A stretch of 21,097 nucleotides of DNA, from positions 1-21,097 of the IMG/VR virus record IMGVR_UViG_3300025118_003236. One strand, given 5' to 3'. The notes below the pieces were generated by a model. It was not told the DNA's origin, searched no databases, and saw only the letters and a program-made list of their open reading frames with translations. Source of the DNA: a virus. The stretch's first letter is position 1, and the number at the start of each line of letters is the position of its first letter. Below, piece after piece: positions 1-19,300 of the stretch. The translations under genes and the position numbers were made by a program.

Positions 1-1193
1 CTGGAATTAATGCAGATGGTAATATAATTACTGCTAATTATATTGTTACAAGTGGCATAGATGGTAATGGAGCATCTAGATTTGGATTTTCTGGTAGTTT
101 ATTGACTACAGAAAATAATTTTGTCAATCCAACAGATATAGGAGTTACTACTAATCTAGCTTCTCAGAATGGATCTGAAATTGAATCTATAGATTCTGTT
201 AAATATTTTGCACCAAGAATCTATTCTGCACAAAATAGAGCAGTAACTAGTCGTGATTATGAAGCAATTATTAAAACAATCTATCCTGATACTGAATCTG
301 TTGCAGTTGTTGGTGGTGAAGAACTAAATCCACCAGAATTTGGGACTGTATCGATCAGTATTAAACCAAAAAATGGTACATTTGTCTCAGATTTAAACAA
401 ATCTAGGATTTTATCTCAATTAAAACAGTACAGTATTTCTGGAATTAATCAAAAAATAAAAGATCTTAAAATACTTTATATTGAAGTTGATTCTGCAATT
501 TATTATGATTATGCAAAAGTAACAACTGCAGAAACATTAAAAACAAAAATAATTAATTCACTTACATCATATTCTAATTCTATAGATATGAACAAATTTG
601 GTGGAAGATTTAAGTATAGTAAAATTCAACAAGTAATTGATAATACGGATACTGCTATTTCTTCTAATATTACTAAAATACGAATTAGGAGAGATTTAAA
701 AGCATTAATAAATCAATTTGCTCAATATGAATTATGTTATGGTAATAGATTTCATGTAAATTCTAAGGGATATAATATTAAATCAACTGGATTTACACTA
801 TCAACAGAACCTGGCATAGTGTATTTGACAGATATACCAAATCCAGATGGATTAACTGGTACTATATCAATAGTAAAACCAATTAATAATGAAATAACAC
901 GTGTTATTTCAAAATCTGCTGGAACAGTTGATTATGTGAAGGGTGAAATTATATTGGGAACAATAAAGATTACTTCCACAGAACTTGATAATAACATTAT
1001 TGAAATACAAGCATATCCAGATTCAAATGATGTTGTTGGATTGAAAGATTTGTATTTGAATTTTAGTATTTCAAAAAGTGCAATAAATATGGTAAAAGAC
1101 GTAATTACTTCTGGTGATGAAATATCAGGTACTGTATTTACTAAAGATTATTATACATCAAGCTACTCAAACGGGAATTTAATAAGAAAGTAA
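1..1193 (+). CDS. 6: Baseplate wedge protein gp6, 3' part (start outside window)
   Basis: The reading frame is open from base 3 to the TAA at 1191-1193, giving 396 visible codons. It begins before the window, so the TTG at 102 is not its start. T4 gp6 is about 660 residues, so roughly the C-terminal 60% is present. In T4, gp6 forms the inner baseplate ring and clamps the wedges around the hub as a component of the gp10-7-8-6-53-25 wedge. The segment at bases ~212-370 is the recognisable part: YFAPRIYSAQNRAVTSRDYE, then IYPDTESVAVVGGEE and GTVSISIKPKNG. This matches the C-terminal baseplate-J-like region of gp6 proteins as I recall them. The last ~150 residues are less conserved and beta-rich. 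Only one base separates its stop from the next gene, so the two are probably co-transcribed and translationally coupled. No membrane segment or signal peptide is seen. Confidence 0.9.
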   Translation, partial: GINADGNIITANYIVTSGIDGNGASRFGFSGSLLTTENNFVNPTDIGVTTNLASQNGSEIESIDSVKYFAPRIYSAQNRAVTSRDYEAIIKTIYPDTESVAVVGGEELNPPEFGTVSISIKPKNGTFVSDLNKSRILSQLKQYSISGINQKIKDLKILYIEVDSAIYYDYAKVTTAETLKTKIINSLTSYSNSIDMNKFGGRFKYSKIQQVIDNTDTAISSNITKIRIRRDLKALINQFAQYELCYGNRFHVNSKGYNIKSTGFTLSTEPGIVYLTDIPNPDGLTGTISIVKPINNEITRVISKSAGTVDYVKGEIILGTIKITSTELDNNIIEIQAYPDSNDVVGLKDLYLNFSISKSAINMVKDVITSGDEISGTVFTKDYYTSSYSNGNLIRK

Positions 1194-1194
1194 T

Positions 1195-4100
1195 ATGATA
1201 CAAACTGGATTTGAATCTAAGGTTAAGGTTCAGCAGATTATTAACAATCAACTTCCAAGCTTTCTTTTGGAGGAGAATCCTAAATCTGTTGATTTTTTAA
1301 AACAATATTATATTTCACAGGAATATCAGGGTGGACCTGTTGATATTGCTGAGAATTTAGATGAATATTTAAAATTAGATAATTTAACTCCAGAAGTAAT
1401 TGTAGATAGTACATATATTACATCCGGAATATCTGCCACAGATACTACAATTTCGGTTAATAGTACTAAAGGATTTCCACAAAAATATGGATTATTCAAG
1501 ATTGATAATGAAATTGTTACATATACTGGGTTAACAACAAATACATTTACTGGATGTCAACGTGGGTTTAGTGGCATTACATCATATCATGATGATTTAA
1601 ATCAAGAAGAACTTGTATTTTCAGATACTACAAAAGCAGAACATATTACAAATGATTCTGTACAGAATTTAAGTTCTTTATTTTTAAAAGAATTTTATAA
1701 AAAATTAAAATATACTTTTGCACCAGGATTAGAAGATGTAGAGTTTGTTGAAACGATAAATGCTGGTAATTTCATAAAAGAAGCAAAATCATTCTATCAG
1801 GCTAAAGGAACTGATGAATCATTTAGGATATTATTCAATGTTCTTTATGGAGAAACACCAAGAGTTGTCAATTTAGAAGATTTTCTAATTAAACCATCTG
1901 CATCTGAATATGTTAGAAGAGAAATTGCTATTGCAGAGGTAATTTCTGGTAATCCGCAAAAATTAGTTGGACAAACAATTGTAAAATCTACCGATTCTGG
2001 AACAAGTGCATCAATATCTGAGATAGAACCTTTTACGAGAGATAATAAGCAATATTTTAAACTTTCACTTTTTATTGGATATGATGAATTATCCACAATT
2101 CAGGGAACATTTAATATTACACCAAGCACCAAATCTTTGGAAACAGTTGCAATTGGTGCTTCTGTAGTTTCGGTTGATTCTACAATTGGATTTGCCAAAA
2201 CCGGAATGGTTATATCCGGTATTAATAGTATTACATATTCCAATAAAACTATTAATCAGTTTTTAGGATGTACTGGAGTAGATACTGCAATTTCTGCCGC
2301 AGATAATATAAGATCTGATGAAATTTATTATGGATTTGAAGATGGTGATGTTAATAAAAGAGTTGAATTAAGATTAACTGGAGTATTATCTGATTTTGTA
2401 CAAATATCAGATACTTTACAAGTTTCTGAAAATGATACTATTTCTGTCAAAAATATTGGTGAATTAATTCTAAATCCAGAGCAGAATAAGACTTATACAG
2501 AAATTTTTGGAAATTCATGGATATACAACACAAGTTCAACTTATGAAATAGAAAGTTTTGGTCAATCATTAACTTTAACTCTTAAAAGTGAAATTGATAG
2601 ATCTAGTCTTAAAAAAGGAGATAGAATAGAGATACTTCAAAGAGGTGGATCTGATGATGGCAAGGTGGTATATCCAACATCAGTATCAAATACCCCATAT
2701 GTAGATCAAGATATCCCTAGAGGTCAAAAATCTGTTAGTTTATCGAATTTTTCTTTTAATCCATCTACAGGTGTAGAATATAGTATAAGAAGAAAAATTA
2801 ATAAAGTAAGTAGTTCAACTGTACCTGTTGAATATGGTAATAATGTTCTTATTTCAGATATACAAAACGTATATACAGTATTAGATGAAGATTATGCTTA
2901 TGTTGCATCTAATTCATTACCATCTAATAATAATGGATTATCTATTCCATATGCATATCAAATAACAAAAAATATTAATAGTGCTTCAATAAATTCTCTT
3001 TCAAATTTAACTAATAAAAACTCAGTAGGTCAGTATACTACTTTAACATTTGGAAGTAATGTACCTTTTATCACTGGTGATAGAATTTATTATCAACCAA
3101 ATTTAGATGCTCTTGATGGGTTAGTTTCTGGATCATCATATTATGTTGAAGTTTTAACTGATAAGAAAACAATTAAATTATATAATTCTTTGGTTTTTAT
3201 TGGAAGTGATAGTTACTTAACTTTTAATGTTCCTAGTTCTGGGATGGATACTCATAAGTTCACTTTATATTCCCATAGATTTAATGAAATTGGATCACAA
3301 AAAATATTTAAAAAGTTTGATATACCTGCAAATAATAAGGTAGGTATTAGAGAAGAAACAGTTCCAGGATCAACTGGAATGTTAATTAATGGTGTTGAGA
3401 TTGTTAATTATAAATCTTTAGATCAAATTTATTATGGACCTTTAGAATCAGTTGATGTAATGAATGGTGGTTGTGGATATGATGTTATTAATTTGCCATC
3501 AGTAACAGTTGCTGGATCAGGTACAACTGCATTACTTCAACCAGTAATTAGTGGTAGTGTTGAAAAGGTATATGTGGATGCTTTAGATTATGATATTGAA
3601 GATGTTGAATCTATTGATGTTACTGGTGGAAATGGTACTGGAGCAGTCTTAAAACCAACTATTACTAAAAGATCCAGAGAGGTATCTTTTGATGGAAGAG
3701 GGACTGGAGATGGTGGTGGTGTAAGTACTTCTATATCTGGAACATCATATCAGATTACATTCTTATCATCCCATAATTTTGCTAATGGACAAGAAATAAT
3801 TTATGATTCTAATAGTAATTTAGGAATTGGAGTTGGTATAGGAACCTCAACTTTAGTTAATAAAGCAAGTTATTTTGCAAAAGTAGATAATAATACAACT
3901 GTTAAATTATTCTATTCTTATAATAACTACTCTCTTGGAATTAATACTGTAGGATTTAATACTGTTAATACAACAGGAATTCATAAATTTAAGACTAAAA
4001 ATGTTAAGAAAACTATAAGTGAAATTAAAGTACTTGATGGTGGAAAAGGATATACTAATAGGAAGTTAATTGTTAAACCAACAGGAATTTCAACTGTCGA

Positions 4101-7100
4101 TAGTGCAGTTAACTTTAATAATCATGGATTTATTGATGGTGATAAAATTTTATATTCTACAGATGGAACACAAATATCTGGATTAACAACATCTACTGGA
4201 ATAACAACTACAGCAAATCATTATCAGATTCTTAAAATAGACGATAATTCCTTTAAACTTTCAGATGCTGGTGTTGGAGGAACGATAACTTCTAATTATG
4301 AGAGTAGAAAATTTGTTAATATTAGTAGTATTGGTTCTGGATATCAGAATTTTGCTTATCCAGGTATTTCGGTAGTTGTAAATTATACACCAGTTGGCCT
4401 TGGTACTACTCAATCTAAGAAAGAAGTTGTTTCAACACCTTTAGTTAGGGGTAGTATTATTGATACCTATGTTTATGAAGGTGGAGTTGGATATGGTTCA
4501 AGTATATTAAATCTTGAAATTAAACCAAAAATAACTGTAAAGACTGGTAGAGATGCTCAATTAAAACCAGTTATTGTTAATGGAATATTTAATTCTGTTA
4601 ATATACAGTTTGGTGGATTTGAATATTATTCAATTCCAGATTTAGATGTAGTTGATTCTAGTGGAATGGGATTGGGTGCAGAATTAAGACCAGTTATATC
4701 TAATGGACGAATTACAGATGTTAAAGTTATAAGTACTGGAATTGGATATTCTGCTTCATCTACTTCCATTCAAGTAAAATCAAGTGGATCTAATGGCAAA
4801 TTTGATCCAAATATTAGACAATTGAATGTCAGTACCATTCAAAAGTTTGGAAATGAAATTTTTGAAGAAACTAAAAATAATAAATTAAAATATTGTGTCG
4901 GTGGATATTTTGATACATTAAGAGATTCATTTAATGAATCTGCATCTTCTGTGTCTGGAATAATTGGATGGGCATATGATGGAAATCCAATATATGGTCC
5001 ATATGGACATGAAGATGTAACTGATACAAATTCCAATCCGAAACGTTTAAGTTCTGGATATGGTCTAAGTACTTCTCGTATTGAAGATCGACCTTCTGGA
5101 TTTGTTGATGGGTTCTTTGTAGAGGATTATGAGTATACCAATTCTGGTGATCTAGACATTCATAATGGTAGATTTTCAATAACTCCAGATTTTCCAAATG
5201 GTGTTTACGCCTATCATGCTACAATTGATTTTAGTGGAAATCCACAATTCCCATATTTTATTGGAAATTTATATAGAGCAAATACGATAGAAGAAAATAA
5301 GACTAATAATCAATCATTCGATTTCAATAATTCAAATTTATTACGTAATACTTTCCCATATAAAGTATCTGATGAGTATGCGGATAATGATTTTATCATT
5401 GAGACAAATGAGATTACAGGACAAAGGGCAATCATTGAATCTATAGACAGTGGATCTGTAAGTGGATTTAATATTATCAATTCAGGAACAGATTATAAAG
5501 TAGATGATGTTTTAAATTTTGATAGTAGTGGCACAGAAGGTGGTGGATTAATTTCAAAAGTAGATTCTTTAAAGGGATCAGATATTTTAAATATAGAAAC
5601 TTCTATAGAGACATATGAAGATGCTATATTCAGTTGGGAAAATGAAAATGAAGTAAAAGTTTCTATTTTACCTCGACATGAATTGAGGAATAATGATGAT
5701 ATTGTTATTTCAGGATTTAGTACATATTTAACAAAATTAAACAGTTCTTATGAAATAGGAATTACTTCTTATTATTCCAATCTTTTATCTCCTATTGTTG
5801 GTACGGATGCTTCTCCAGGAGCAGCAACAACAGAAATATATGTTACTCAATTGCCAAAATCTGTATCTGTCGGAAGTAGTATTGGTATAGGAACAGAAAC
5901 TTTACAAGTATTGAATATATTCCCGAATTTGAATATATTGAGGATAAAGAGAGGTATTTTAGGAACTGCCCATACAGCAACATCACGTATAGATTTTATT
6001 CCTGATTCTTTTGTAGTTTCTCAAAAAATAGATTATTTTGAATCATCTGTTAATGAGAAGATATATTTTAATGCTAGAGAATCTGTAGGTGTTGGTACTA
6101 CACCAGGTACAGCTGGAATTTGCACAGATGCAGTAACATTTGAGTTTGGTGCTTCTTCAATTACAAGAGCTGTTCCGACTCAATCAATTTATATTGAAAA
6201 TCATCCATTTGTTGACAATCAACCAGTTAATTTGACAGTACCAACTAGTGGGACACTTTCAATATCGACTAATGCTGTAGCAACACCATTTAATTTACCA
6301 ATATCTGGTCTTACTACTACAGTTTTTGTTGTTAATAAAACCATTAATAGTATTGGAATAAAAACAGGTGTAGGTACAGATCATAATGGTAATCAATATG
6401 AAGAGGTATTTTTCCGCAATACTGTTCCACAATTATTGAATAGTGATGAATTTCTTCTTGAAAGTATATTTGCACAAAAGACAGGAAAAGTTCAAAGAAT
6501 TAATAGTGTAGTTTCAGTTGCAGCAACTCATGAATTAATTGCTGGAGATGTAATTAGTTTGGATGTTGAACCAAAACTTGCTGTTGGTATTGGAACATCT
6601 ACTGGTGTAGTTGTAAAAAGAGATTCAACTACAGAAAGTATTGTAATTAATCCAATTAAGATTGATCCTTCTGATATTGATACAACAAATAATAGAATTA
6701 CAGTTGCTTCCCATAATCTAAATTCCGGAGATAAAGTTAGCTATGCAGCGTCTTTACCTGCTTCTGGTTTGTCTACATCTACTTATTATGTTTATAGGAT
6801 TAATGATGATATTATAAAATTCTCTGAAAGTTATATTGATGCTACAAAGAATCCACCCACTATAGTAAGTATTGCAAATACTGGTGGTGCCACACATAGC
6901 ATTTCACCTATTAATCCTAGAATTTCATCAGTTAAAACTAATAGTTTAGTATTTGATTTATCAGATTCTTCATTGTCGGGATATAATTTTAAGATTTACT
7001 ATGATAATGAATTTAATAATGAATTTGTTTCTACAGGAACAACAACTGGATTTACATTAGTTGGTGTAGGAACTGTTGGAGTTACAACAAATGCTTCATT

Positions 7101-10100
7101 AACAATTAATTATAATACTACTTCTCTGAATAAATTACCAGAACGATTATATTATAATTTGGAGAAATCTGGATACCTGAGTACCGCAGATACTGAAGTA
7201 AAGAATAATTCTGAGATATTGTTTATTGATAGTACATATACATCAGATTATGTTGTTTCTGGAGTTAGTTCCTATACTTTCAATATTGCTTTAAACAATA
7301 TACCAGAGAAAACATCATATATTTCAACAGATTGTTCTACATTTGAATATACTACAAAATCCAAAAATGTAAAAGGTTCTATAGATAAAGTTTCTGTTAT
7401 TTCTGGTGGTAGTGGATATAAAAAACTTCCTAAATTTGTAGGATCTAATTCTGCTGAAGGTACTGGTGCTTATTTAAGTCCAACATCTAATACGATAGGT
7501 AATATAAAACAAGTAAGAATTCTTAATGAAGGATTTGAATACTCTTCAGATAGAACTTTACAGCCGAATGCTAACATATCACCATTAATTGCACTTAAAG
7601 ATTCAAATACTATTGGAGTTGTTACTGTTACTAATGGTGGAAGAAATTATACAACCCCACCAAATATTATTGTAGTTAATACTGATGGTGGAGAAATAAT
7701 TGATAATGGAATTTTAAGAGCATCATTATCTGGTAATTCTATTATTTCTGTAGATGTAGTACAGGGTACAAAAGGACTTTCTGAAACTACATCAAAATTA
7801 TATGCTGTAAATAATACAAATGGAATTAGTATTCAGAAGATTGCACAACAATCTGATACTAAGTTTATATGTCAATTAACAACACCAACTTTAGGATTCT
7901 CTACAGATGTCTTTAGTGCTGGTGAGAAGGTTTATATAGAAGGAATACAAAAGGTTGGTACTGCTGGATCTGGATTTAACTCGGAGGATTATGGATATAA
8001 TTTCTTTACTGTTGAAAGTTATAAGAATTCTACGTTTATTGGAACAATTACTCAAGATGAGGTTACAATTAATGTAAGTGCATTAACAACCAATACTGGA
8101 ATTGCAAAAACAATACAGGATTCATTTGGATCTATTATAAAGAAAGGTGATTATCCTACCTTTGTTATAACACAAGTATTATCACATTTTAAAGAAGGTG
8201 AAAAATTAATTAGCAATGGTGTTGAAAGGGATTTGATTATTAAGAGTTATGATCCAACTGGTTATATTAAAGTAGATGGATCATATGGACTATCTGTGGG
8301 TGAGATTATAACTGGTAAAGAAACAGGATCTATTGCAACAATAGATGTAATTGAAGATAATACTGGAAGATTTGTAGTTAAATATGCTAATAAGAAAGAT
8401 ATTGGGTGGGATGATAATACAGGAAAATTAAATGATGATATGCAGGTAGTTGCTAATAATGATTATTATCAAAATCTTTCTTACACTATTAAGAGTCCTA
8501 TTGAATGGAAAGATTTAAGAACTCCTGTTAATAGTTTAGTTCATACTAGTGGATTGAAAAATTTTGCAGATACAGGAATTACTTCAACTGCAACTGTTAG
8601 TATTGGTAGTTCAAATGCTACAACTATAGTACGTGATGTACTTGAAGAATTACGTGTTGATACAATCTATGACTATGATAATGTATTAGATATTGATGTT
8701 ATTGGAAGTCAATCTAAGTTCTTAAAATTAGAAAATAAGAAATTGACAGATTATACTCTTTCTAAGACTAATATTGTATTGAAAATAGACAATATAAACA
8801 ATTTGTTTAATGATGATGATGGTAACCCATCTGAATATATTGATCTTTATGAATTATCCCCATCAGTTTCATATGATAGTGTTTTAGTACGAGTAACTAA
8901 TACTGTAGATAATAGTGATATTCAATTGACAGATTTGGTCATTATGAATGATGGTACTAATAGATTATTATTAGAAAAAGGAAGTTTAGATAATGCTGGA
9001 ATAGCTTTAACTCATACCACAAGTGACGAATATGGTACATTTTCTATAGCAGAAGATAAGTATCTTCGTTTTATTCCTGAAGAAACATACAGTACAGATT
9101 ATGATTTAAAATTTATAAAAAGTAATTTTGGATCTGCATCTTCTGGGATTGGAACTACTTCTATTGGATGTGTTGATTTAACGTCATTTAGTGGTATTGT
9201 AACTTCAGGTGGAAGTGGAATAACAAGTTCTATTGTAGATGTTGCAATTGGAAAATATCGTTCATTGCATGTTAATGCTCAAGTTCTTGATTCTTCAACA
9301 AATGCTCTTAATTTTGTTGAGTTATATGTAACTCATGATGAAACAAATACTTATCTTGCAGAATCTTATTTCGATTCAACTACTGGTTCATATTCTGGTA
9401 ACTTTATAGGTTCATTTACTTCTAGTATTGATTCTGGAATTCTATATCTTAATTATACCAATGATACTTCTCATGACGTTAAGATTAAATCAAAGATTGT
9501 TGGATTTGCTGCAACAACACTTGGTATAGGAACTTATAGATACCAATCATCTGGTCAAACTGAGGGATCTGAAAGAACAGCAATATATCAATCAGATTTT
9601 AGTGAAACTTCTTCAGCTTCTCCAGCAAATGTTTTAACTTTAAATAAAAATCTCTTTAATGCTGCCAAATCTATAGTTGAAGTTGGTATGGGAGTATCAA
9701 AATCTCTTCATGAGGTTTTGATGGTACAAGATGGTACTGATGTGTATGTACAACAATCTTCATTCCTTTCAATTGGAAGCACATTAACTAGTGCTAGTAG
9801 TGGTAGTGGAAAAAATGCAGGTCTGGGAACTTTTGGTGGATACTATTATGGTACTGATCTTACATTGAAATTCTTCCCTGATGCAACAATGACATCAGAT
9901 ATGAATATTGCAGCATTTAGTGAATGTTTATATACAACCTTAGATCAAGATAATATTCCAAATGATTATACTTATGGTGATAGTACAGAGATTTTAGATA
10001 TAAAATTCTATAATGCAATTGGTGGTAGTAGAATTAATAGACTTGATTTCCCAATAAAAACTGATGGTACCTATATTTTTGCTAAATCTTTTAGTCCAAC

Positions 10101-13100
10101 AAATTCCAGTCAATTAAATTTATCTACTGGTGTATTTACTATAGAAGATCACTTCTTTAGAACTGGTGAAACATTAACATATACTCCAGAATCTACAATT
10201 ATTGGAATTGGATCAACAGCTATGACTGACAGTACTGGTACTGTTTTGCCATCAACTGTTTATGCAATTAGAGTAGATGATGATAACTTTAAACTTGCTA
10301 CATCACATAGCAATGCAATGGCAGGAACTAATGTTTCCTTTGGATCATCTGGTGAAGGAAATGCTCATGAATTAGCAATGACTAAAACTAATTCAAAATC
10401 AATTATCACTATTGATAATATAATTCAATATCCATTAACATATACTCCTATTTCATACACATTATCTGGAAATGCTGGAGGTTCAATTGGTAAAGGAACT
10501 ACAATATTTGCTTTAAGTGGAATAAGTACGTTATCTGCAAATGATATTTTAAGAATAGATGATGAATATGTTAAGGTTGAGAATGTTGGATTGGCATCAA
10601 CTGCTATTGGACCAATAACAGGAGTAGGAGCATCTACTATAGTTCATGTTGAAAGGGCATTTGCTGGATCAGATGCTACATCTCATACAGATACGACAAC
10701 TGCTAGATTGTATAAGGGTGCATTTAATATTATTGGTAAAAATATATATTTCACTGAATCACCTAGAGGAAATTCTCAAATTACAAAGGATAGTAGTAAT
10801 TTGGATTTCCCAACATCTGATTTTGGTGGAAGAGTATTTTTAAGAGAAAATTATGATACTAATCAAGTATATGATGATATTTCAGATCAATTTACTGGTA
10901 TTGGCAGAACATTTACATTAACTGTTGGTGGAGCAAATACTGCTGGAATTGGAAGTACTGGTGGAAATGGAATTGTGGTTATTAATGGTGTATTCCAAAC
11001 TCCAACTACTATAAACAATCCTGAAAATAATTTTGATATAATAGATCCAGAATCAAATATAGCAGGTATATCAACTCTTATCTTTAGTGGTATTACTTCT
11101 ACAGATGGAACTCAGTATATATCACAATCTGATGTAAATAGAAATCAACTTCCAAGGGGTGGTGTCATTGTTTCTCTTGGATCTTCTGGTGGATTGGGAT
11201 ATGCACCTCTTGTTAGTTCACAAGTAAGACCTAAAGTTGATGCTTATGGTGCTGTTACTGGTATTGTTGGTATTGGAACGACTCAATCTGCTCTTGCTAT
11301 TAGTACAGCATCTTATACTAATACTACCGGTTTATTGAAAATTACAACGGTAGAACCACATGGTCTTGTGCTTGGTATTGTAAATGAAGTAACGATGGTT
11401 GGACTTCACTTTACTTGTCGTGGCACATTTGATGTTTCTGGTGCTGATTATAATGAAGTAACAGGTGATTTAACACTAGCAATTGGTGATCATAATCTAT
11501 CTGTTGGTGAAGGAATTCGTCTTAAAAATAATTCCTTAGTATTTAAGTGTGATAAGGATTCTTATGGCAGTACTCACAGTTATCCTCGTGCAGGAACTGA
11601 TCCTATTGCTGGTATAAGCACTCCTATAACATCTATAGGTTCAACTACAATTACGATTAGTGCTGGTATTGGAACAATCAGCAAACATACATTTGCAAGT
11701 GCTGTTGCAGGGGCAGTAGGGTATGGCACAGAACATTCGGGTGTAACTACAACTATTTTCCCAGATGCTGCTAATGATAGACCATTTGCAATTACCGGAA
11801 TTAATTCAACAAATACTTTCACTGCAAATGTAGGTATAAGCACTATCCCTCACATGTATGTTGGTCAAGGAACAGCATTCTCATGGTATGGGGATCTTAC
11901 ATACGGTTCTGGATATAATGATGCTATTTCTATTGGAGTATCAATAAGAGATGTAGGATACGCTCATACCTTCATAGGAGCAGCAACAGGTGCTGTTACT
12001 GGCACTGGAGGTCCATTCACACCCACAGATGCAGCATATGTCTCAGACACCGGTATACTGACCTTAACTATTCCTAGTCATGGAAGAAGTAGTGGTAATG
12101 TTCAGATTGTTCAGAATTCATTAGTATTCACTTGTGCTAGAGATGATCATCAAACATTCCATAATTATCCAAGATCTACTGATCCTGCTGGCGGTTCAGC
12201 AAATCTACCAATTACTGTAATAGATGCTGATACTCTTTCTGTTAATGTTGGTGCTGGATCAAGTGGTAATGGTGCAACTATAACTGCACATCCAGTTGGA
12301 GTTAATACACATCTATTTGTAAGTGCTACAACTGGTGGTGTTAGAAGACTTAGTGGTACACCTGCTGATCTTACTTCATTGAGTGTTACTCCTCCATATA
12401 ATCCTTCTACAGGATTATTAACAATTAGAACTGGTGGAACCCATGGTTGTACTGCTGTAACATATAAAAATGTAACTGGTGCTGTTTATACTCCTTTAAC
12501 AGGAATAATGACAGTTACCTCATCATCTCATGGATTTAGTAATGGTGATTATGTCAAGATTGCAGATAATTCACTTACATTTAAATGTGATCTTGATGGT
12601 GGTGTTAGTAACCATAGTTATCCAAGATCATCAGATCCAATCAATAATAGGTGGATAGCAATTGCAAATAAAACTACTAATACATTTGAAATGCAGGTTG
12701 GTATAACCACTGCAGGAAATTATGCTCATACTTGGGTTAGTGCTGCAACAAGTGCTATTATGAAGGCAAATTCTTGGATTGGAATTGCAACAGGTTCATT
12801 CACAATGACATGTGCTCAGGATAGTCATAGTACTCTTCACACATATCCAAGAACAACAGATCCAGCACATTGGACTGATGGAAATGTATTAGGTGTTGAA
12901 GATGTTACTGGTAATATGTTCACTGTAAATGTTGGTAAATCTCCATATGGAAGTGGTGGTGCACTAACATTCAATATTGGTGCTGCTGGTACAAATTATT
13001 CAAATCCAGAAATATATGTTTCTGAACCAAGATATGATAATCTTACTGTTGAAGGAATATCAAGATTATCAGTAGGTCCTACATCTGATACTGGAAATAA

Positions 13101-14793
13101 TCTTTTAGTAGATTTGGCAGTTAGTGCTGCTTCAACTACTGGAATAGCATCAGATACATTTGAGGTATCTTCATTCGATATATCTAGAAATGGATATTCA
13201 TTTAGACAAGGTGATATATTCACACCTGTTGGATTAGTTACACATAGAACATTACAGAATGCTATATCAAAATATCAATTAACTGTTAATGAAGTATTTG
13301 AAGATACATTTGCTGCTTGGCAATTTGGTGAACTTGATTATATTGATTCTGTTAAAAATTATCAAGATGGTGTAAGAACTAGATTCCCAATATACTATAA
13401 TGACGAATTACTTAGTTTTGAAAAAGAAGAAGGTAGTAGAGTTGATTTAACTAATGCATTATTAATTGTTATTAATGGAATAGTTCAAGAACCTAATGTA
13501 GCATATGTCTTTGATGGTGGAACATCATTTAGCTTTGTTACTGCTCCAAGAGTTGAAGATAATATAGATATTTTCTTCTATAGAGGAACAAGGAATGGTG
13601 ATGATGAATTAGTAACTAATATCAATCAGACTATAGAAAGAGGAGATACTGTACAAGTATTTAAAAACAATAGTATTAATGGAACTATAACACAGGATAA
13701 GAGATTGGTATTTGATTTATCATACTCAGATAAATTTGAAACTAATAAGTATCTTGATCAAGGAGTAGATGAGATTAATTATAAACCATTAGCATGGACT
13801 AAACAAAAGATTGATAGGGTAATTAATGGTGACGTAATTTATAAAGATAGAGATTCTATTGAACCAATGGTATTCCCAACAGCAAAAATTATTGATACGA
13901 TTGGATCAAGTGATACTGAATTATTTGTTGAGGATGCAGATCTCTTTGATTATGATTCTGCTACTGATTTCTCTGGAATAATTGTTTCTGGTGCTGCAAA
14001 TCCTGTAGCAGCAGCGGTAACTGCTACCGTTTCTGTTGGAGGAACTGTCAGTGGATTTGTGATTACGGGAGGTAGTGGATATACATCAGTACCTACTGTA
14101 TCAATTGCTGCTCCGTTGGAAGTTGGTGTTGGTGTTGGAACTACTGCTACAGCAACTGCTACTATATCTGGAGGTGCAGTTAGTGGAATTAGTATTAATA
14201 ATATAGGATTTGGATATACTGTTGCTCCAACAGTAATGGTTTCAATTCCAAGTCCAGTATATGAAAATGTATCAGGTATTGATATTATTCAGGGGTTTGC
14301 TGGAATTGTCACTGGTATTAGCACATGTAATGCTGCTGGTCTAACAACCCATGCAATTAAATTTGAATTGCATCGTGATACTACTAACTATACAAATTTG
14401 AATATTGGGTATCCAATTTATGTTTATGATACACGAGTTGGTAGTGGTGTAACATCAGTTGCTTCTAACGATTTATCAATAGTTGGAGTTGGAACAACAT
14501 TTGCTGATAATGTTTATATGATTCAAGAGATTTCAAATGTTGGTGCTGCTGGATCTATTATTTGTTATATAGATTCGGGTACAAATGTTGTTGGACTTGC
14601 TAGTACTGGAAGTTCATCTGATCCAATTGGTAAATTCTCTTGGGGAAGACTTGCTGGAATTAGTAGGTCTAGTTCACCAGTTTCTATAGCAGTAACTGGA
14701 AATATTGTTGATGTTGGATTGACAACATTCCCAACAATTCAGAGAAGAGGTACTGGTTTAAGAGATACCGGAGCACTTCCCAAGAAAACTTAA
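1195..14793 (+). CDS. 7: Giant gp7-like baseplate wedge protein with multidomain repeat extension (4532 aa)
   Basis: One uninterrupted frame starts at ATG 1195, one base after the gp6 stop and preceded by a purine run (AAGAAAG, 1184-1190). It ends in tandem stops TAATAA at 14791. The N-terminus (~1-300) is the diagnostic part: VKVQQIINNQLPSFL, VDFLKQYYISQEYQGG, LFLKEFYKKLKY, FYQAKGTDESFRILFNVLYG and KLVGQTI. It aligns, from memory, with the C-terminal third of T4 gp7 (FYSTKGIEASYKFLFKVLYN, LVGQTI). T4 gp7 is 1032 residues; this protein is over four times longer. Downstream, in order: HGF-xGD modules and GGxGY motifs (~620-1190); a YHYH-type domain (~1230-1365); more of the same (~1530-2180); conserved LNDDMQV/NDYYQNLSY/VHTSGLKNFADTGI (~2410-2465); a three-copy module (2559-2915); a four-copy Cys-Asp-His-YPR-DP unit (3431-3932); a conserved C-terminal domain (~3989-4240); two GGxGY motifs (4292, 4338); and a C-terminal cap with KFSWGRLAGI and LQRRG-like IQRRGTGLRD. 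No transmembrane segment or signal peptide is seen. gp7 identity rests on the N-terminus and the 6-7-8 order. Much of the rest may be surface decoration or fibre docking, which is inference. Confidence 0.85.
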   Translation: MIQTGFESKVKVQQIINNQLPSFLLEENPKSVDFLKQYYISQEYQGGPVDIAENLDEYLKLDNLTPEVIVDSTYITSGISATDTTISVNSTKGFPQKYGLFKIDNEIVTYTGLTTNTFTGCQRGFSGITSYHDDLNQEELVFSDTTKAEHITNDSVQNLSSLFLKEFYKKLKYTFAPGLEDVEFVETINAGNFIKEAKSFYQAKGTDESFRILFNVLYGETPRVVNLEDFLIKPSASEYVRREIAIAEVISGNPQKLVGQTIVKSTDSGTSASISEIEPFTRDNKQYFKLSLFIGYDELSTIQGTFNITPSTKSLETVAIGASVVSVDSTIGFAKTGMVISGINSITYSNKTINQFLGCTGVDTAISAADNIRSDEIYYGFEDGDVNKRVELRLTGVLSDFVQISDTLQVSENDTISVKNIGELILNPEQNKTYTEIFGNSWIYNTSSTYEIESFGQSLTLTLKSEIDRSSLKKGDRIEILQRGGSDDGKVVYPTSVSNTPYVDQDIPRGQKSVSLSNFSFNPSTGVEYSIRRKINKVSSSTVPVEYGNNVLISDIQNVYTVLDEDYAYVASNSLPSNNNGLSIPYAYQITKNINSASINSLSNLTNKNSVGQYTTLTFGSNVPFITGDRIYYQPNLDALDGLVSGSSYYVEVLTDKKTIKLYNSLVFIGSDSYLTFNVPSSGMDTHKFTLYSHRFNEIGSQKIFKKFDIPANNKVGIREETVPGSTGMLINGVEIVNYKSLDQIYYGPLESVDVMNGGCGYDVINLPSVTVAGSGTTALLQPVISGSVEKVYVDALDYDIEDVESIDVTGGNGTGAVLKPTITKRSREVSFDGRGTGDGGGVSTSISGTSYQITFLSSHNFANGQEIIYDSNSNLGIGVGIGTSTLVNKASYFAKVDNNTTVKLFYSYNNYSLGINTVGFNTVNTTGIHKFKTKNVKKTISEIKVLDGGKGYTNRKLIVKPTGISTVDSAVNFNNHGFIDGDKILYSTDGTQISGLTTSTGITTTANHYQILKIDDNSFKLSDAGVGGTITSNYESRKFVNISSIGSGYQNFAYPGISVVVNYTPVGLGTTQSKKEVVSTPLVRGSIIDTYVYEGGVGYGSSILNLEIKPKITVKTGRDAQLKPVIVNGIFNSVNIQFGGFEYYSIPDLDVVDSSGMGLGAELRPVISNGRITDVKVISTGIGYSASSTSIQVKSSGSNGKFDPNIRQLNVSTIQKFGNEIFEETKNNKLKYCVGGYFDTLRDSFNESASSVSGIIGWAYDGNPIYGPYGHEDVTDTNSNPKRLSSGYGLSTSRIEDRPSGFVDGFFVEDYEYTNSGDLDIHNGRFSITPDFPNGVYAYHATIDFSGNPQFPYFIGNLYRANTIEENKTNNQSFDFNNSNLLRNTFPYKVSDEYADNDFIIETNEITGQRAIIESIDSGSVSGFNIINSGTDYKVDDVLNFDSSGTEGGGLISKVDSLKGSDILNIETSIETYEDAIFSWENENEVKVSILPRHELRNNDDIVISGFSTYLTKLNSSYEIGITSYYSNLLSPIVGTDASPGAATTEIYVTQLPKSVSVGSSIGIGTETLQVLNIFPNLNILRIKRGILGTAHTATSRIDFIPDSFVVSQKIDYFESSVNEKIYFNARESVGVGTTPGTAGICTDAVTFEFGASSITRAVPTQSIYIENHPFVDNQPVNLTVPTSGTLSISTNAVATPFNLPISGLTTTVFVVNKTINSIGIKTGVGTDHNGNQYEEVFFRNTVPQLLNSDEFLLESIFAQKTGKVQRINSVVSVAATHELIAGDVISLDVEPKLAVGIGTSTGVVVKRDSTTESIVINPIKIDPSDIDTTNNRITVASHNLNSGDKVSYAASLPASGLSTSTYYVYRINDDIIKFSESYIDATKNPPTIVSIANTGGATHSISPINPRISSVKTNSLVFDLSDSSLSGYNFKIYYDNEFNNEFVSTGTTTGFTLVGVGTVGVTTNASLTINYNTTSLNKLPERLYYNLEKSGYLSTADTEVKNNSEILFIDSTYTSDYVVSGVSSYTFNIALNNIPEKTSYISTDCSTFEYTTKSKNVKGSIDKVSVISGGSGYKKLPKFVGSNSAEGTGAYLSPTSNTIGNIKQVRILNEGFEYSSDRTLQPNANISPLIALKDSNTIGVVTVTNGGRNYTTPPNIIVVNTDGGEIIDNGILRASLSGNSIISVDVVQGTKGLSETTSKLYAVNNTNGISIQKIAQQSDTKFICQLTTPTLGFSTDVFSAGEKVYIEGIQKVGTAGSGFNSEDYGYNFFTVESYKNSTFIGTITQDEVTINVSALTTNTGIAKTIQDSFGSIIKKGDYPTFVITQVLSHFKEGEKLISNGVERDLIIKSYDPTGYIKVDGSYGLSVGEIITGKETGSIATIDVIEDNTGRFVVKYANKKDIGWDDNTGKLNDDMQVVANNDYYQNLSYTIKSPIEWKDLRTPVNSLVHTSGLKNFADTGITSTATVSIGSSNATTIVRDVLEELRVDTIYDYDNVLDIDVIGSQSKFLKLENKKLTDYTLSKTNIVLKIDNINNLFNDDDGNPSEYIDLYELSPSVSYDSVLVRVTNTVDNSDIQLTDLVIMNDGTNRLLLEKGSLDNAGIALTHTTSDEYGTFSIAEDKYLRFIPEETYSTDYDLKFIKSNFGSASSGIGTTSIGCVDLTSFSGIVTSGGSGITSSIVDVAIGKYRSLHVNAQVLDSSTNALNFVELYVTHDETNTYLAESYFDSTTGSYSGNFIGSFTSSIDSGILYLNYTNDTSHDVKIKSKIVGFAATTLGIGTYRYQSSGQTEGSERTAIYQSDFSETSSASPANVLTLNKNLFNAAKSIVEVGMGVSKSLHEVLMVQDGTDVYVQQSSFLSIGSTLTSASSGSGKNAGLGTFGGYYYGTDLTLKFFPDATMTSDMNIAAFSECLYTTLDQDNIPNDYTYGDSTEILDIKFYNAIGGSRINRLDFPIKTDGTYIFAKSFSPTNSSQLNLSTGVFTIEDHFFRTGETLTYTPESTIIGIGSTAMTDSTGTVLPSTVYAIRVDDDNFKLATSHSNAMAGTNVSFGSSGEGNAHELAMTKTNSKSIITIDNIIQYPLTYTPISYTLSGNAGGSIGKGTTIFALSGISTLSANDILRIDDEYVKVENVGLASTAIGPITGVGASTIVHVERAFAGSDATSHTDTTTARLYKGAFNIIGKNIYFTESPRGNSQITKDSSNLDFPTSDFGGRVFLRENYDTNQVYDDISDQFTGIGRTFTLTVGGANTAGIGSTGGNGIVVINGVFQTPTTINNPENNFDIIDPESNIAGISTLIFSGITSTDGTQYISQSDVNRNQLPRGGVIVSLGSSGGLGYAPLVSSQVRPKVDAYGAVTGIVGIGTTQSALAISTASYTNTTGLLKITTVEPHGLVLGIVNEVTMVGLHFTCRGTFDVSGADYNEVTGDLTLAIGDHNLSVGEGIRLKNNSLVFKCDKDSYGSTHSYPRAGTDPIAGISTPITSIGSTTITISAGIGTISKHTFASAVAGAVGYGTEHSGVTTTIFPDAANDRPFAITGINSTNTFTANVGISTIPHMYVGQGTAFSWYGDLTYGSGYNDAISIGVSIRDVGYAHTFIGAATGAVTGTGGPFTPTDAAYVSDTGILTLTIPSHGRSSGNVQIVQNSLVFTCARDDHQTFHNYPRSTDPAGGSANLPITVIDADTLSVNVGAGSSGNGATITAHPVGVNTHLFVSATTGGVRRLSGTPADLTSLSVTPPYNPSTGLLTIRTGGTHGCTAVTYKNVTGAVYTPLTGIMTVTSSSHGFSNGDYVKIADNSLTFKCDLDGGVSNHSYPRSSDPINNRWIAIANKTTNTFEMQVGITTAGNYAHTWVSAATSAIMKANSWIGIATGSFTMTCAQDSHSTLHTYPRTTDPAHWTDGNVLGVEDVTGNMFTVNVGKSPYGSGGALTFNIGAAGTNYSNPEIYVSEPRYDNLTVEGISRLSVGPTSDTGNNLLVDLAVSAASTTGIASDTFEVSSFDISRNGYSFRQGDIFTPVGLVTHRTLQNAISKYQLTVNEVFEDTFAAWQFGELDYIDSVKNYQDGVRTRFPIYYNDELLSFEKEEGSRVDLTNALLIVINGIVQEPNVAYVFDGGTSFSFVTAPRVEDNIDIFFYRGTRNGDDELVTNINQTIERGDTVQVFKNNSINGTITQDKRLVFDLSYSDKFETNKYLDQGVDEINYKPLAWTKQKIDRVINGDVIYKDRDSIEPMVFPTAKIIDTIGSSDTELFVEDADLFDYDSATDFSGIIVSGAANPVAAAVTATVSVGGTVSGFVITGGSGYTSVPTVSIAAPLEVGVGVGTTATATATISGGAVSGISINNIGFGYTVAPTVMVSIPSPVYENVSGIDIIQGFAGIVTGISTCNAAGLTTHAIKFELHRDTTNYTNLNIGYPIYVYDTRVGSGVTSVASNDLSIVGVGTTFADNVYMIQEISNVGAAGSIICYIDSGTNVVGLASTGSSSDPIGKFSWGRLAGISRSSSPVSIAVTGNIVDVGLTTFPTIQRRGTGLRDTGALPKKT
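1387..1662 (+). other. Module inserted inside the gp7 core (residues ~65-156)
   Basis: Between the two halves of the gp7-like core (VDFLKQYYISQEY at ~28-40 and LFLKEFYKKL at ~162-171) lies a ~90-residue segment. It has the pattern TTISVNSTKGF, then IDNEIVTYTG, then GCQRGFSG and a His. The same pattern occurs three more times in this protein (near bases 2140-2310, 5824-5990 and 10480-10720). T4 gp7, as I recall it, has a different short stretch at this point. It is most likely a small beta domain projecting from the core. Confidence 0.6.
3466..4740 (+). repeat. GGxGY motif cluster with HGF-xGD modules in gp7-like protein
   Basis: Five related short motifs occur here. They are GGCGY (residue 758), GGKGY (949), GGVGY (1096), GGFEY (1140) and TGIGY (~1181). 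Most are followed 4-12 residues later by a hydrophobic beta-like strand such as LPSVTVAG or LNLEIKP. Interleaved are modules starting with an H-N/G-F/L then G-D/Q pattern (NFANGQEIIY near 3775, HGFIDGDKILY near 4123) and ending in a 'DDNSFKLS'-like strand. The HGF-xGD type resembles the small fold that databases label E1_FCCH in phage proteins. The repeats are divergent at DNA level, so the duplications are old. Confidence 0.7.
4882..5265 (+). other. YHYH-type domain within gp7-like protein (residues ~1230-1357)
   Basis: Residues 1259-1271 read WAYDGNPIYGPYG. About 70 residues later comes YAYHATI (Y1338, H1341), followed by FPYFIGN. The DGNPIYGPYG block followed by a Y-x-Y-H block is the hallmark of the YHYH domain family, found in secreted bacterial proteins and in marine phage structural proteins. 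The function of the family is not established. The acidic, Asn- and His-rich loops could bind a metal, but that is inference. The domain lies in the middle of a repeat-rich region, like an insertion on a scaffold. Confidence 0.75.
7405..7665 (+). repeat. GGxGY motif cluster in gp7-like protein (residues 2071-2157)
   Basis: Three copies lie in ~90 residues: GGSGYKKLPKFV (2071), EGFEYSSDRTLQP (~2111) and GGRNYTTPPNIIVV (2148). Each is a Gly-Gly-x-x-Tyr turn followed by a proline and a hydrophobic strand. The ~37-40 residue spacing fits a regular repeated beta unit. Confidence 0.65.
8869..9939 (+). repeat. Three-copy ~90-105 residue module in gp7-like protein
   Basis: Three segments share one plan. 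Copy 1 is at residues ~2559-2650, copy 2 at ~2678-2783 and copy 3 at ~2826-2915. Each has a strand leading to a hydrophobic-rich stretch (DLVIMNDGTNRLLLEKG, ELYVTHDETNTYLAES, EVLMVQDGTDVYVQQSS), then a Gly/Ser-rich linker (GTFSI, GNFIGSF, LGTFGG), then a strand ending in a TSDxxxK/A-like block (YSTDYDLKFIK, TSHDVKIKSK, MTSDMNIAAF). The repeat is visible only in protein. I do not know a named family for it. Its regular spacing suggests consecutive beta-sandwich domains. Confidence 0.6.
11485..12990 (+). repeat. Four-copy Cys-Asp-His-YPR-DP module in gp7-like protein
   Basis: Four units occur in residues 3431-3932. Their central lines are NSLVFKCDKD...HSYPRAGTDP (from 11485), NSLVFTCARD...HNYPRSTDP (from 12073), NSLTFKCDLD...HSYPRSSDP (from 12523) and SFTMTCAQD...HTYPRTTDP (from 12793). 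Before the core most units carry TGxLTxT followed by H-G/N and G-D/N. After it come a strand ending in VNVG-like residues, a His, and an SAxTGAV-like tail. The Cys, Asp, His, Tyr, Pro, Arg and final Asp-Pro are kept in all four. A degenerate partial copy (LHFTCRG) precedes them near base 11404. In DNA, TATCCAAGA is shared by copies 2-4, but the copies are otherwise divergent. The role is unknown; the fixed Cys and His could bind a metal or stabilise the fold. Confidence 0.75.
13159..13914 (+). other. Conserved C-terminal domain of gp7-like protein (residues ~3989-4240)
   Basis: This region lacks the repeat patterns and is richer in charged residues than its surroundings. Recognisable blocks are FEVSSFDISRNGYSF, FRQGDIFTPVGLVT, YQDGVRTRFPIYYN, LLIVINGIVQEP, FDIFFYRGT-like DIFFYRGTRNGDDE and ERGDTVQVFKNN. 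I recall similar blocks near the C-termini of large structural proteins in marine T4-like phages. The NGIVQEP/YRGT segment looks like a compact beta domain repeated across such phage proteins. The role is not known; it may anchor the C-terminus to another baseplate component. Confidence 0.6.
14068..14250 (+). repeat. GGxGY pair near the C-terminus of gp7-like protein
   Basis: Two clear copies, GGSGYTSVPTVSIAAP (residue 4292) and IGFGYTVAPTVMVSIP (Gly 4338), are 46 residues apart. An Ala/Thr/Val-rich stretch lies between them. These are the best-preserved copies in the protein and closely resemble the GGTGY copy in gp8 at 15651. Confidence 0.7.
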
Positions 14794-16394: not shown

Positions 16395-19300
16395 ATGGCA
16401 CAAAAAACAAATTTAAATATTAGCCCTTATTATGATGATTTTGATTCTGAGAAGAATTTTTATAAGGTGCTGTTTAGGCCAGGATATCCAGTCCAGGCAA
16501 GAGAATTAACGTCTTTACAATCTATATTACAAAATCAAGTCGAATCTTTTGGTAGTCATATATTTAAAGAAGGATCTATGGTTCTTCCTGGAAATATTGC
16601 ATTTGATGGTCAGTTTTATTCAATAAAGTTAAATGCAACAAATTCTGGAATAGATATTGCTTTATACATTAAGAATTTTATTGGTAAAACCATAACAGGT
16701 CAAACATCAAATATAACTGCAAAAGTTCAACATGTAGAGCTTACAGATAATGTTAATGTTCAGGAATTAACATTATATGTTAAATATTTGGATTCTAATA
16801 GTGATTTTTCGTTTACACAATTTGAAGATGGTGAGCAATTAACATGTGATGAGAATGTAGTTTATGGAAATACTACTATTAGTGCTGGAACACCTTTTGC
16901 TTCATTAATTGCATCTGATGCAACATCTATAGGATCTGCAGCTTCAATTGGAAAGGGTGTTTATTTTATTAGAGGATCTTTTGTAAATGTTTCTCAACAA
17001 ACTTTAGTTTTAGATTATTATACTAATACTCCTTCATATAGAGTTGGATTAAAAATTGATGAATTGATAATTAATGCAAAGGATGATGATTCTTTGTATG
17101 ATAATGCAAAGGGATTTTCTAATTTTGCTGCTCCTGGTGCTGATAGATTAAAAATTAATTTAACCTTAACTAAAAAATTATTAACAGATATTAATGATAC
17201 AGATTTTGTTGAACTTCTTAGGTTAAAAGAAGGAAAAATACAGAAACTTAATACAAAGACTCAATATAATAAGATTCGTGATTATTTGGCAGAAAGAACT
17301 TATGATGAATCAGGAGATTATGCAGTAAAAGCATTTGATCCAACAGTACATAATTCATTGAATAATAGATTGGGTAATAATGGCATATTCTTTGATACAG
17401 AAAAAACTGAAGATGGAAATATACCAACTAATGATTTAATGTGTTTAAAAATATCTCCAGGAAAGGCATATGTTAGGGGATATGATGTTGAGAAGGCAGG
17501 TACAACAATTATTGATGCTGATAAACCAAGAGATACTGACAAAGTTTCTAATATACAAGTTCCATTTGAAATGGGACATTTGGCAAAAGTTAATAATGTA
17601 ACTGGAATAGCAAAACAGAAGGCACAATGTTCTCTTTGGAATAGAAAAGTTGGAGATTCACCATCTGTAATAGGAATGGCACGAGTATATACTTTTAATC
17701 TTACTGATGCAGCATATACTGATGGTTCTACTCCATATGATTTAAGATTATATGATATTCAGACGTATACAAAATTAACTTTAAATCAAAGTGTAGATGC
17801 TACAGATATTCCAAGTACTGCTTATATAAAAGGTAAGAGTAGTGGTGCTAGTGGATATGCTGTTGATGCGGGTGGTGGTTCTACTTTTATTAATATAAGA
17901 GAAACTTCTGGTAAATTTGTTAAAGGGGAGCAGATAACTATTAATGGTATTGATGCTCCAAGAACAATTAGTGATTTTGTTGAATATGGAACTCAAAATA
18001 TTAAATCAATAACTCAGGGTGCTAGTACTGGATATCCAGCATTTAGTGCTGATACAGTATGTACAAAATTCCCAATGCCTGGTGGAATTAATCAAATAAC
18101 AATGCCACCTATACTTAGTGGTGTTGCGACTGTAACTGCTGGTGGAAAACTCTTTACAGGAATAAGAACAGATACTATTATTTCGTATCACAGACCCGGA
18201 TTTAGCACAGAAACATATAATAGAGTCTCTAGTGTTGCATCGGATGGATTATCGATAGAATTAAGTCCAATAGCTGCTGGTGCTGCTGTTACTGGTGTTT
18301 ATGATGGTCAAGTACTAAGTAAATTTAATGTCTCATCTAGCCGTCCTCAAGGTGATGAAACATTGGTTACTCCATTTGCTATGGGTCCAGTTATTAGTGA
18401 TTCTGGGGGATTATATGCCGAATTACCAGATTCGAATGTTTCTTCTGTAAATTTATTAAATTCTACATTATTAGTCTCAGAACAATTAACAGGTGAATCA
18501 ACAAGTTCTGCTGGTGTATTAACCTTCGATCTTGCAAGTTCAGGAATTACTAGTGCAGCATACTCAACTTTTGATCAAGAAAGATATGGAGTTCATTATT
18601 CTACTGGTATAGCAGGAACTGTTACCGATGATACTTTTGATTTAACCAATAATACTGTAACTATTAGAGGTCTAAGAGTTTCACAATCTAATGTTGTTGT
18701 TAATACAACTCTTCAAAAATATGGAGTACAAAGTAAAGTAAAACAATATAATAGAAGTCAACAAGTTAGTATAACACGTTCTAAGTATGAAAAATCAGGA
18801 ACAGGAATTAATACTTCAGTCGTTGATGGATTAAATCATAATTCTCAATATGGATTAAGAGTTCAAGACGAAGAGATATGTTTAAATTATCCAGATGTAG
18901 CAAAGGTATTAACAGTTTATGAATCTCTTGATACTTCAAATCCAACTTTAGATAAAGTATTATTTACCTCAACGGCAAGTGTTCATACAAATGCTGTGAT
19001 GGGTGAGCATGTAATAGGTGGTACAAGTAATGCTGTTGCACAAGTTGTTTCTACACCAACAGCTAATACTTTAGAAATTGTTTATTTGACTGGAGATACA
19101 TTTGAAGTTGGAGAAACTGTTACATTTGAAGAATCAAATATAGTAACAGAAGTTGAAACAATTACTTTAGGAAATTATAAAAATATTACAGATTCATATG
19201 AAATAGATAAAGGACAAAAAGAACAATATTATGATTATTCTAGACTTATTAGAAAGCGTGGTGCTCCAGAACCAACTAGAAGATTATTAGTAGTATTTGA

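Follow-up and report, generated by a model that had tools for sequence, protein, structure and literature searches.

Gp7 in T4 and related phages

The baseplate protein gp7 of T4 (1,032 aa; NC_000866) is present in six copies per virion, according to PMC3004832. In T4 and other Straboviridae its gene lies in the order gp6-gp7-gp8, and the protein carries, in this order, a conserved piece (core A), domain V and a second conserved piece (core B), preceded by about 640 further residues and recognized by Pfam domains V, VI and helical. The simple phage XM1 has a gp7 orthologue, gp17, of 242 aa. As described in PMC10457771, its core lies near the N-terminus, with N-terminal core-bundle helices, and outer parts (tail spikes) attach to it at an internal loop and at the C-terminus. 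The spikes are separate proteins there, and the comparison with the protein discussed below is by description, not by sequence.

Very large gp7 proteins are already on record from cyanomyoviruses (phrog_2885, 'baseplate wedge subunit'; P-SSM2 PSSM2_111, S-SZBM1_208 and S-SM1 SSM1_102). A different picture is given in PMC7029224, according to which cyano- and pelagimyophages lack T4 gp7 and apparently have VrlC in its place. Genes g10, g11 and g12 are listed as missing from cyanomyoviruses in PMC2984593.

The locus

The window, that is, the whole stretch of DNA analysed, is the 21,097-base IMG/VR virus record IMGVR_UViG_3300025118_003236. No tRNA was found within it, and its four genes all lie on the plus strand:

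3..1193, plus strand: gp6 orthologue, C-terminal part (5' end beyond the window); phrog_219 baseplate wedge subunit, 341 bits
1195..14793, plus strand: giant gp7 orthologue, 4,532 aa, ~486 kDa; phrog_2885, 3517 bits
14841..16388, plus strand: gp8 orthologue, 515 aa; PF09215, 43.7 bits (cut-off 25), and phrog_438
16395..21095, plus strand: DUF4815 protein (PF16075), named 'VrlC' in cyanophage records; its 3' end lies beyond the window

The gp6 part also matches Pfam Gp6_C-III at 20.9 bits, under the cut-off of 27, and the DUF4815 protein has BLAST matches to VrlC-named proteins of S-SRM01, S-T4, P-HM1, HTVC008M and phiM7. Between gp6 and gp8 lies one uninterrupted ORF; a sequence-only reading of this DNA had described its product as a protein of 4,532 residues, over four times the length of T4 gp7, and that is correct. 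The two motifs by which that reading recognized gp7 are present (FYQAKGTDESFRILFNVLYG at residue 200, KLVGQTI at 256), and the T4 counterparts that it gave are right in wording and in place (FYSTKGIEASYKFLFKVLYN at 734 and LVGQTI at 781 of the 1,032 residues). Gene order, profiles and a fold search all support gp7 orthology. The best stretch of the phrog_2885 match covers residues 2-3589, and T4 gp7 itself matches that family at E 1.3e-4.

Another contig, L004, shares 8,481 bases with the window at 99.93% identity. Residues 1-342 were used to fetch 80 IMG/VR relatives. In 78 of them the frame is open to the end of the available sequence, and in two it ends at a stop codon, after 1,517 (L020) and 3,550 residues (L067); it exceeds 3,000 residues in 32 of the 80. 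The L020 ORF ends in this way on a contig of 207,616 bases.

A probable two-piece core

The reading that we prefer, and consider probable, is that this ORF is the gp7 wedge protein of a cyanomyovirus-like phage whose core comes in two pieces (residues 8-306 and 2405-2475) that are about 100 residues apart in T4. The parts of the protein are given below with the results on which their placement is based; A2 is an alignment of 28 bridging IMG/VR short forms, drawn from 73 ORFs with both pieces, and the insertion boundaries are approximate, within perhaps 20 residues.

1216..1389, plus strand: core A, helical segment (residues 8-65); A2 profile i-E 2.2e-9, three helices in the model
1399..1677, plus strand: residues 69-161, inserted within core A; the short forms of alignment A4 lack them, and the model is a small beta-barrel of phage type
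1684..2112, plus strand: core A, FYxxKG motif and domain V (residues 164-306); A2 i-E 3.3e-16 across 164-363
2113..8406, plus strand: insertion within the gp7 core (residues 307-2404, ~2,100, limits approximate), the gap from core A to core B
2113..2331, plus strand: residues 307-379, which resemble residues 63-142 in the core A insertion (30% identity and E 1.4e-5 by self-BLAST)
4573..4779, plus strand: GxGY module (residues 1127-1195); A2 profile slot columns
Residues 1416-1461, 2040-2128 and 4284-4350, plus strand: further GxGY modules; A2 profile slot columns
4834..5235, plus strand: YHYH-family domain (residues 1214-1347); PF14240, 93.1 bits, E 2.9e-26, cut-off 25
8407..8619, plus strand: residues 2405-2475, gp7 core B; i-E 9.3e-12 with A2 and 1.4e-10 with the core B profile
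8620..14790, plus strand: C-terminal extension (residues 2476-4532, ~2,060), beginning after core B
11275..13074, plus strand: HxYPR repeat modules (residues 3361-3960); self-BLAST, and the motif at 3461, 3656, 3807 and 3882
12907..14790, plus strand: conserved C-terminal block (residues 3905-4532), aligned in four giants

This anatomy departs from the sequence-only reading in several respects. The core was said to begin about 30 residues from the start, which is true of the helical segment; the FYxxKG motif (here FYQAKG) comes 200 residues in, and the ~90-residue insertion at 69-161 separates the two. What follows was said to be some 4,200 residues made up of modules that T4 lacks; this is not confirmed, as a second segment of the gp7 core recurs at residues 2405-2475. 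That the core had moved to the N-terminus is misleading: it is split in two, and the T4 group has the ~640 extra residues in front. With the core near the N-terminus in the short forms and giants compared, those leading residues are a peculiarity of the T4 group, and the direction of 'moved' is therefore reversed. Taken as a whole, the observation made in that reading is partly confirmed and its interpretation partly supported.

The sequence evidence starts from six short gp7 forms (pf16, BUCT-ZZ01, Cr30, Melnitz-1, phiM7 and HTVC008M; PF23786), which occupy the same slot after gp6 and have the same core order. Compared with nine T4-type gp7s, they gave three collinear matches, to T4 641-679 (weak, P 0.31), T4 725-824 (E 7.4e-9, prob 95.8) and T4 851-893 (E 4.4e-4, prob 33.7), the last of which is core B. 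Its motif is YYQ..SY, then one aromatic residue, then HPxG in short forms and T4-type proteins (HxxG in general). A profile of core B was made from the six short forms, which match it by construction. It matches 10/10 giants, the window protein at 2405-2458, and every one of the nine T4-type gp7s, the latter with i-E 2.3e-5 to 0.04 when 25 proteins are searched.

Against 177,635 PDB sequences, the top matches of the A2 profile are T4-type gp7s (E 6e-13 and 3.4e-11), in which core B gives a second, weak domain match in collinear position. By way of the GxGY module, tail sheath proteins rank after gp7, and unrelated chains begin at E 0.0078, below both. With the window protein the same profile gives E 4.6e-36, its match falling into three pieces in collinear order (8-65, 164-363 and 2181-2475), and it connects the first two of these with T4 643-849. 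For core A, profile comparison gives E 4e-18; the A1 profile has two PDB matches at E<=10, both to gp7. The core A of the window family alone, by contrast, reaches gp7 in the PDB only at E 0.078, with no other match at E<=10.

It might be held instead that the core ends at about residue 320 and that core B is a common phage module present in both proteins by chance. Direct comparison of the window-family core B with T4 lends this some weight: the score is 21.3, and one of 60 decoys reached 27.5; the same profile finds no gp7 in the PDB, its single match (0.98) being unrelated. The A2 domain scores of T4-type core B (7.8-11.5 bits) are also near the 7.7 bits reached by the highest-scoring of 275 decoys with reversed or shuffled sequence, and T4 core B taken with full-length alignments scores 22.3 (prob 0.4). 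We nevertheless judge this alternative unlikely. The short-form core B segment, when excised, scores 42.1 against T4 840-1032, the best of 60 column-shuffled decoys reaching 19.1, and window-family core B matches short-form core B at prob 99.0 and E 5.8e-18 in profile-profile comparison; as a matter of sequence comparison, the link from window core B to T4 is transitive, by way of the short forms. Pfam PF23786, which matches 28/28 short forms at E<=0.1, places both pieces within one domain of 284 positions. Both pieces were found in 98 of the 104 proteins scanned (25 named proteins and 79 IMG/VR ORFs), a frequency biased upwards because the query held both pieces and the ORFs came from the best 80 of 509 relatives, and in each of the 98 the order is core A, then core B. 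(A core match was present in a single ORF from 79 of those 80 relatives: 73 of these ORFs have both pieces, five have A alone and run off the contig end, and one has B alone.) Neither piece was found in 13 control baseplate proteins, on which the core A and core B profiles reached at best -0.8 and 2.0 bits, respectively. The core-only profiles served for these controls because the full A2 profile touches some of them (S-SM1_097 at <=9.8 bits, window gp8 at 8.7, HTVC008M gp56 at 6.9 and DUF4815 at 6.4), the matches falling in slot and domain V columns, outside the core A and core B motifs.

The two-piece protein is not a gp7 of T4 type. The Pfam families Gp7_helical, Gp7_5th and Gp7_6th, present in T4, have no match in it at E<=0.1. 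With these three families and the ~640 leading residues missing, it is by its core that the protein is an orthologue. The family of the short forms, PF23786 (Baseplate_wedge), reaches 13.7 bits on it, with a cut-off of 27, at residues 187-220 only.

Short and giant relatives

Matches to residues 1-402 (tblastn, E<=1e-5) occur in 462 of 50,697 phage records, and those 462 are named Synechococcus, Prochlorococcus, cyanophage or marine virus. Giant gp7s measured in 11 cyanomyoviruses, the window counted, are of 1,937-6,619 aa. Those in the same slot are of 6,619 aa in S-SZBM1, 6,180 in S-SM1, 5,195 in P-SSM2 (annotated gp7), 4,749 in S-T4, 4,446 in P-HM1, 4,225 in ACG-2014f, 3,895 in S-SRM01, 3,048 in S-PM2, 3,045 in S-CAM3 and 1,937 in S-CREM2. 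Thus, the size of the window protein is usual for cyanomyoviruses. Like it, the phrog_2885 giants have core A and core B and a YHYH-family domain in the insertion; they differ in length and in the number of HxYPR motifs, and S-SM1 and S-SZBM1, unlike the window, have a far larger insertion inside core A. In these two (L089 10852-29394 and L187 1519-21378, respectively) core A is split by about 600 GxGY-rich residues.

The short forms in the same slot measure 523 (pf16), 607 (BUCT-ZZ01), 767 (Cr30), 896 (Melnitz-1), 1,006 (phiM7) and 1,016 aa (HTVC008M). BUCT-ZZ01 is a cyanophage, of Synechococcus elongatus, and yet its gp7 is among these. The gap from core A to core B is 100-102 residues in the nine T4-type gp7s, 80-875 in short forms (176-779 in the six just named) and 1,565-2,690 in ten giants, and the giants have from 19 (S-CREM2) to 2,681 residues (S-SM1) after core B.

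Some further observations on these genes may be recorded. The gaps in short forms seem to cluster, at 162-171, 217-243, 304-326, 379-412 and 538-576 residues, which looks like gain of modules in units, the kinship of the relatives being uncorrected for. Some short-form ORFs have about 85 more residues ahead of the core if read from their first start codon. The short gp7 of BUCT-ZZ01 (L105 5869-7692) shows by eye, at its end, a tandem array of near-identical units of the RSDTQGLSD type, each about 17 residues long. The start of the S-SKS1 gp7 gene (L084 16501-28900) lies in sequence without an annotated CDS, and its coding stretch is broken into four open pieces that lie in three frames, perhaps through errors of assembly.

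Modules of the additions

The YHYH-family domain is placed in the core insertion in 10/10 giants aligned, and tblastn finds it in 459 of the 50,697 phage records. The family is predicted, from conserved histidines, to be a metal-dependent hydrolase (PMC7824862). At the position of the motif that gives it its name, the window protein has YAYH and nine other giants have YAYF, YCYF or YAYY; the string YHYH is absent from 11/11 giants. Nine relatives have a histidine just ahead of IIGWAYDG, and the window protein lacks it. With the name motif missing, a catalytic reading that relies on the YHYH string was set aside; the absence of the string, and of that histidine in the window protein, makes a structural or binding role likelier than that of a hydrolase.

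The HxYPR motif occurs in four copies in the window protein, five in P-SSM2, two in P-HM1 and none in the other eight giants, and the region that carries it has no counterpart in the S-SRM01 alignment. The GxGY modules are related to tail-sheath domain I: PF22639 matches 10/28 short forms. The model of residues 69-161 resembles phage virion barrels (VIA Z 8-9, rmsd ~2). Profiles of four blocks of the additions (~321-1110, 1360-2390, 2481-3360 and 3905-4532) found nothing in the PDB better than E 0.24; phmmer with the whole protein gave no PDB match at E<=0.1, and an NCBIfam search gave none.

Structure models and selection

For L165, residues 1-300 were modelled as a short-form core (pLDDT 67, pTM 0.36). 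The model has three Foldseek matches at E<=0.001, all of them T4-type gp7s (the best at 1.5e-10 over 316 columns), and a VIA Z of 11.3 over T4 639-882, the top unrelated chain scoring 5.8. For window residues 1-342 (pLDDT 57), Foldseek ranks gp7 first (E 1.1e-5); VIA gives gp7 a Z of 7.6, beneath five barrels that match the insertion and one further chain. Superposition of model on gp7 gives a TM of ~0.2 and an rmsd of ~20 A, with core B not placed against core A, and the models thus do not reproduce the domain arrangement of gp7.

Six regions within residues 1-3360 were compared with relatives in 14 mutually non-independent comparisons. No region reaches a dN/dS of 0.5 in any of them, and core A has the lowest value each time (0.08-0.22); residues 1-3360 are under purifying selection. 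The dN of core B is under that of both flanking regions in 13/14 comparisons, the one with L047 being a near tie.

Giant gp7 proteins in virions

Published proteomics of purified virions shows that giant relatives occur in them. S-SZBM1_208 (6,619 aa), which carries core A and core B, is reported from mass spectrometry with 71 peptides and 13.5% coverage (PMC9146016), and S-CREM2 ORF122 (1,937 aa) with 91 unique peptides and 27.2% (PMC10665884). Gene cluster T4-GC 969, the number carried by the 6,180-aa S-SM1 gene, is listed from S-SM1 virions (PMC3037559). The coverage of the 6,619-aa homologue is low enough to accommodate cleavage of the product during assembly, with just part of the 4,532 residues entering the virion. 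This seems to us quite improbable: the 71 peptides were assigned to one 724-kDa product (a predicted mass, not a measured one; PMC9146016), and the presence of a core piece halfway along the chain speaks against a simple cut behind core A.

The proposal in PMC7029224 that these phages are without gp7, its place being taken by VrlC, is hardly credible and was rejected: neither the window DUF4815 protein (a VrlC homologue, partial) nor the VrlC of HTVC008M scores for core A or core B, and the HTVC008M protein that follows gp6 matches the A2 profile, built without HTVC008M, at E 2.5e-76. That gp7 orthologue (L106 33435-36485) is annotated 'head closure Hc2'; phrog_460, which bears this name, also matches window gp8 at residues 206-277, a GxGY-like stretch, and this may explain the label.

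A platform for insertions?

The window protein is, then, a genuine orthologue of gp7. Its sequence is new, its kind known, and its core interrupted and not relocated. Its identity and gene order are as described above, and the two-piece core is found in short and giant relatives. If, as we think probable, the two pieces make one gp7 core, A and B would fold with two copies of gp6 into the (gp6)2-gp7 wedge core. The chain would exit after domain V, run for about 2,100 residues, come back to complete the core and exit again as a C-terminal arm of about 2,060 residues. Loop and arm would project from each of the six wedges and build the periphery of the baseplate, where the giant additions may stand in for T4 gp10, gp11 and gp12 and modules in these arms would serve to anchor fibres or to make contact with the surface of the host. 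A large peripheral structure made by giant gp7 is plausible. The window protein exceeds T4 gp7 by ~367 kDa, or ~2.2 MDa if there are six copies, which may be set against ~2.6 MDa per virion for T4 gp10, gp11 and gp12 at 18 copies each (values from PMC3004832); this match of mass is only suggestive of a replaced periphery.

A broader proposal, which we put forward tentatively and at somewhat less than even chances, is that gp7 serves T4-like contractile tails in general as a platform for insertions, with a small two-piece core, a C-terminus that is free and two internal slots (one between helical segment and FYxxKG, the other separating domain V from core B), and that in cyanophages these are filled with arms of up to ~2,700 residues, a single covalent chain in each wedge replacing gp10, gp11 and gp12. 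Searches of an open-access library, most subscription papers lying outside it, gave no description of the split core.

These results correct the reading in which the gp7 core has moved to the N-terminus with all else appended, and also the view, as stated in PMC7029224, that gp7 is missing from cyano- and pelagimyophages. If the core is indeed in two pieces, baseplate models of these abundant marine viruses could be built on the T4 wedge, with the points at which the arms leave and return known, and the arms would be the place to look for contact with the host.
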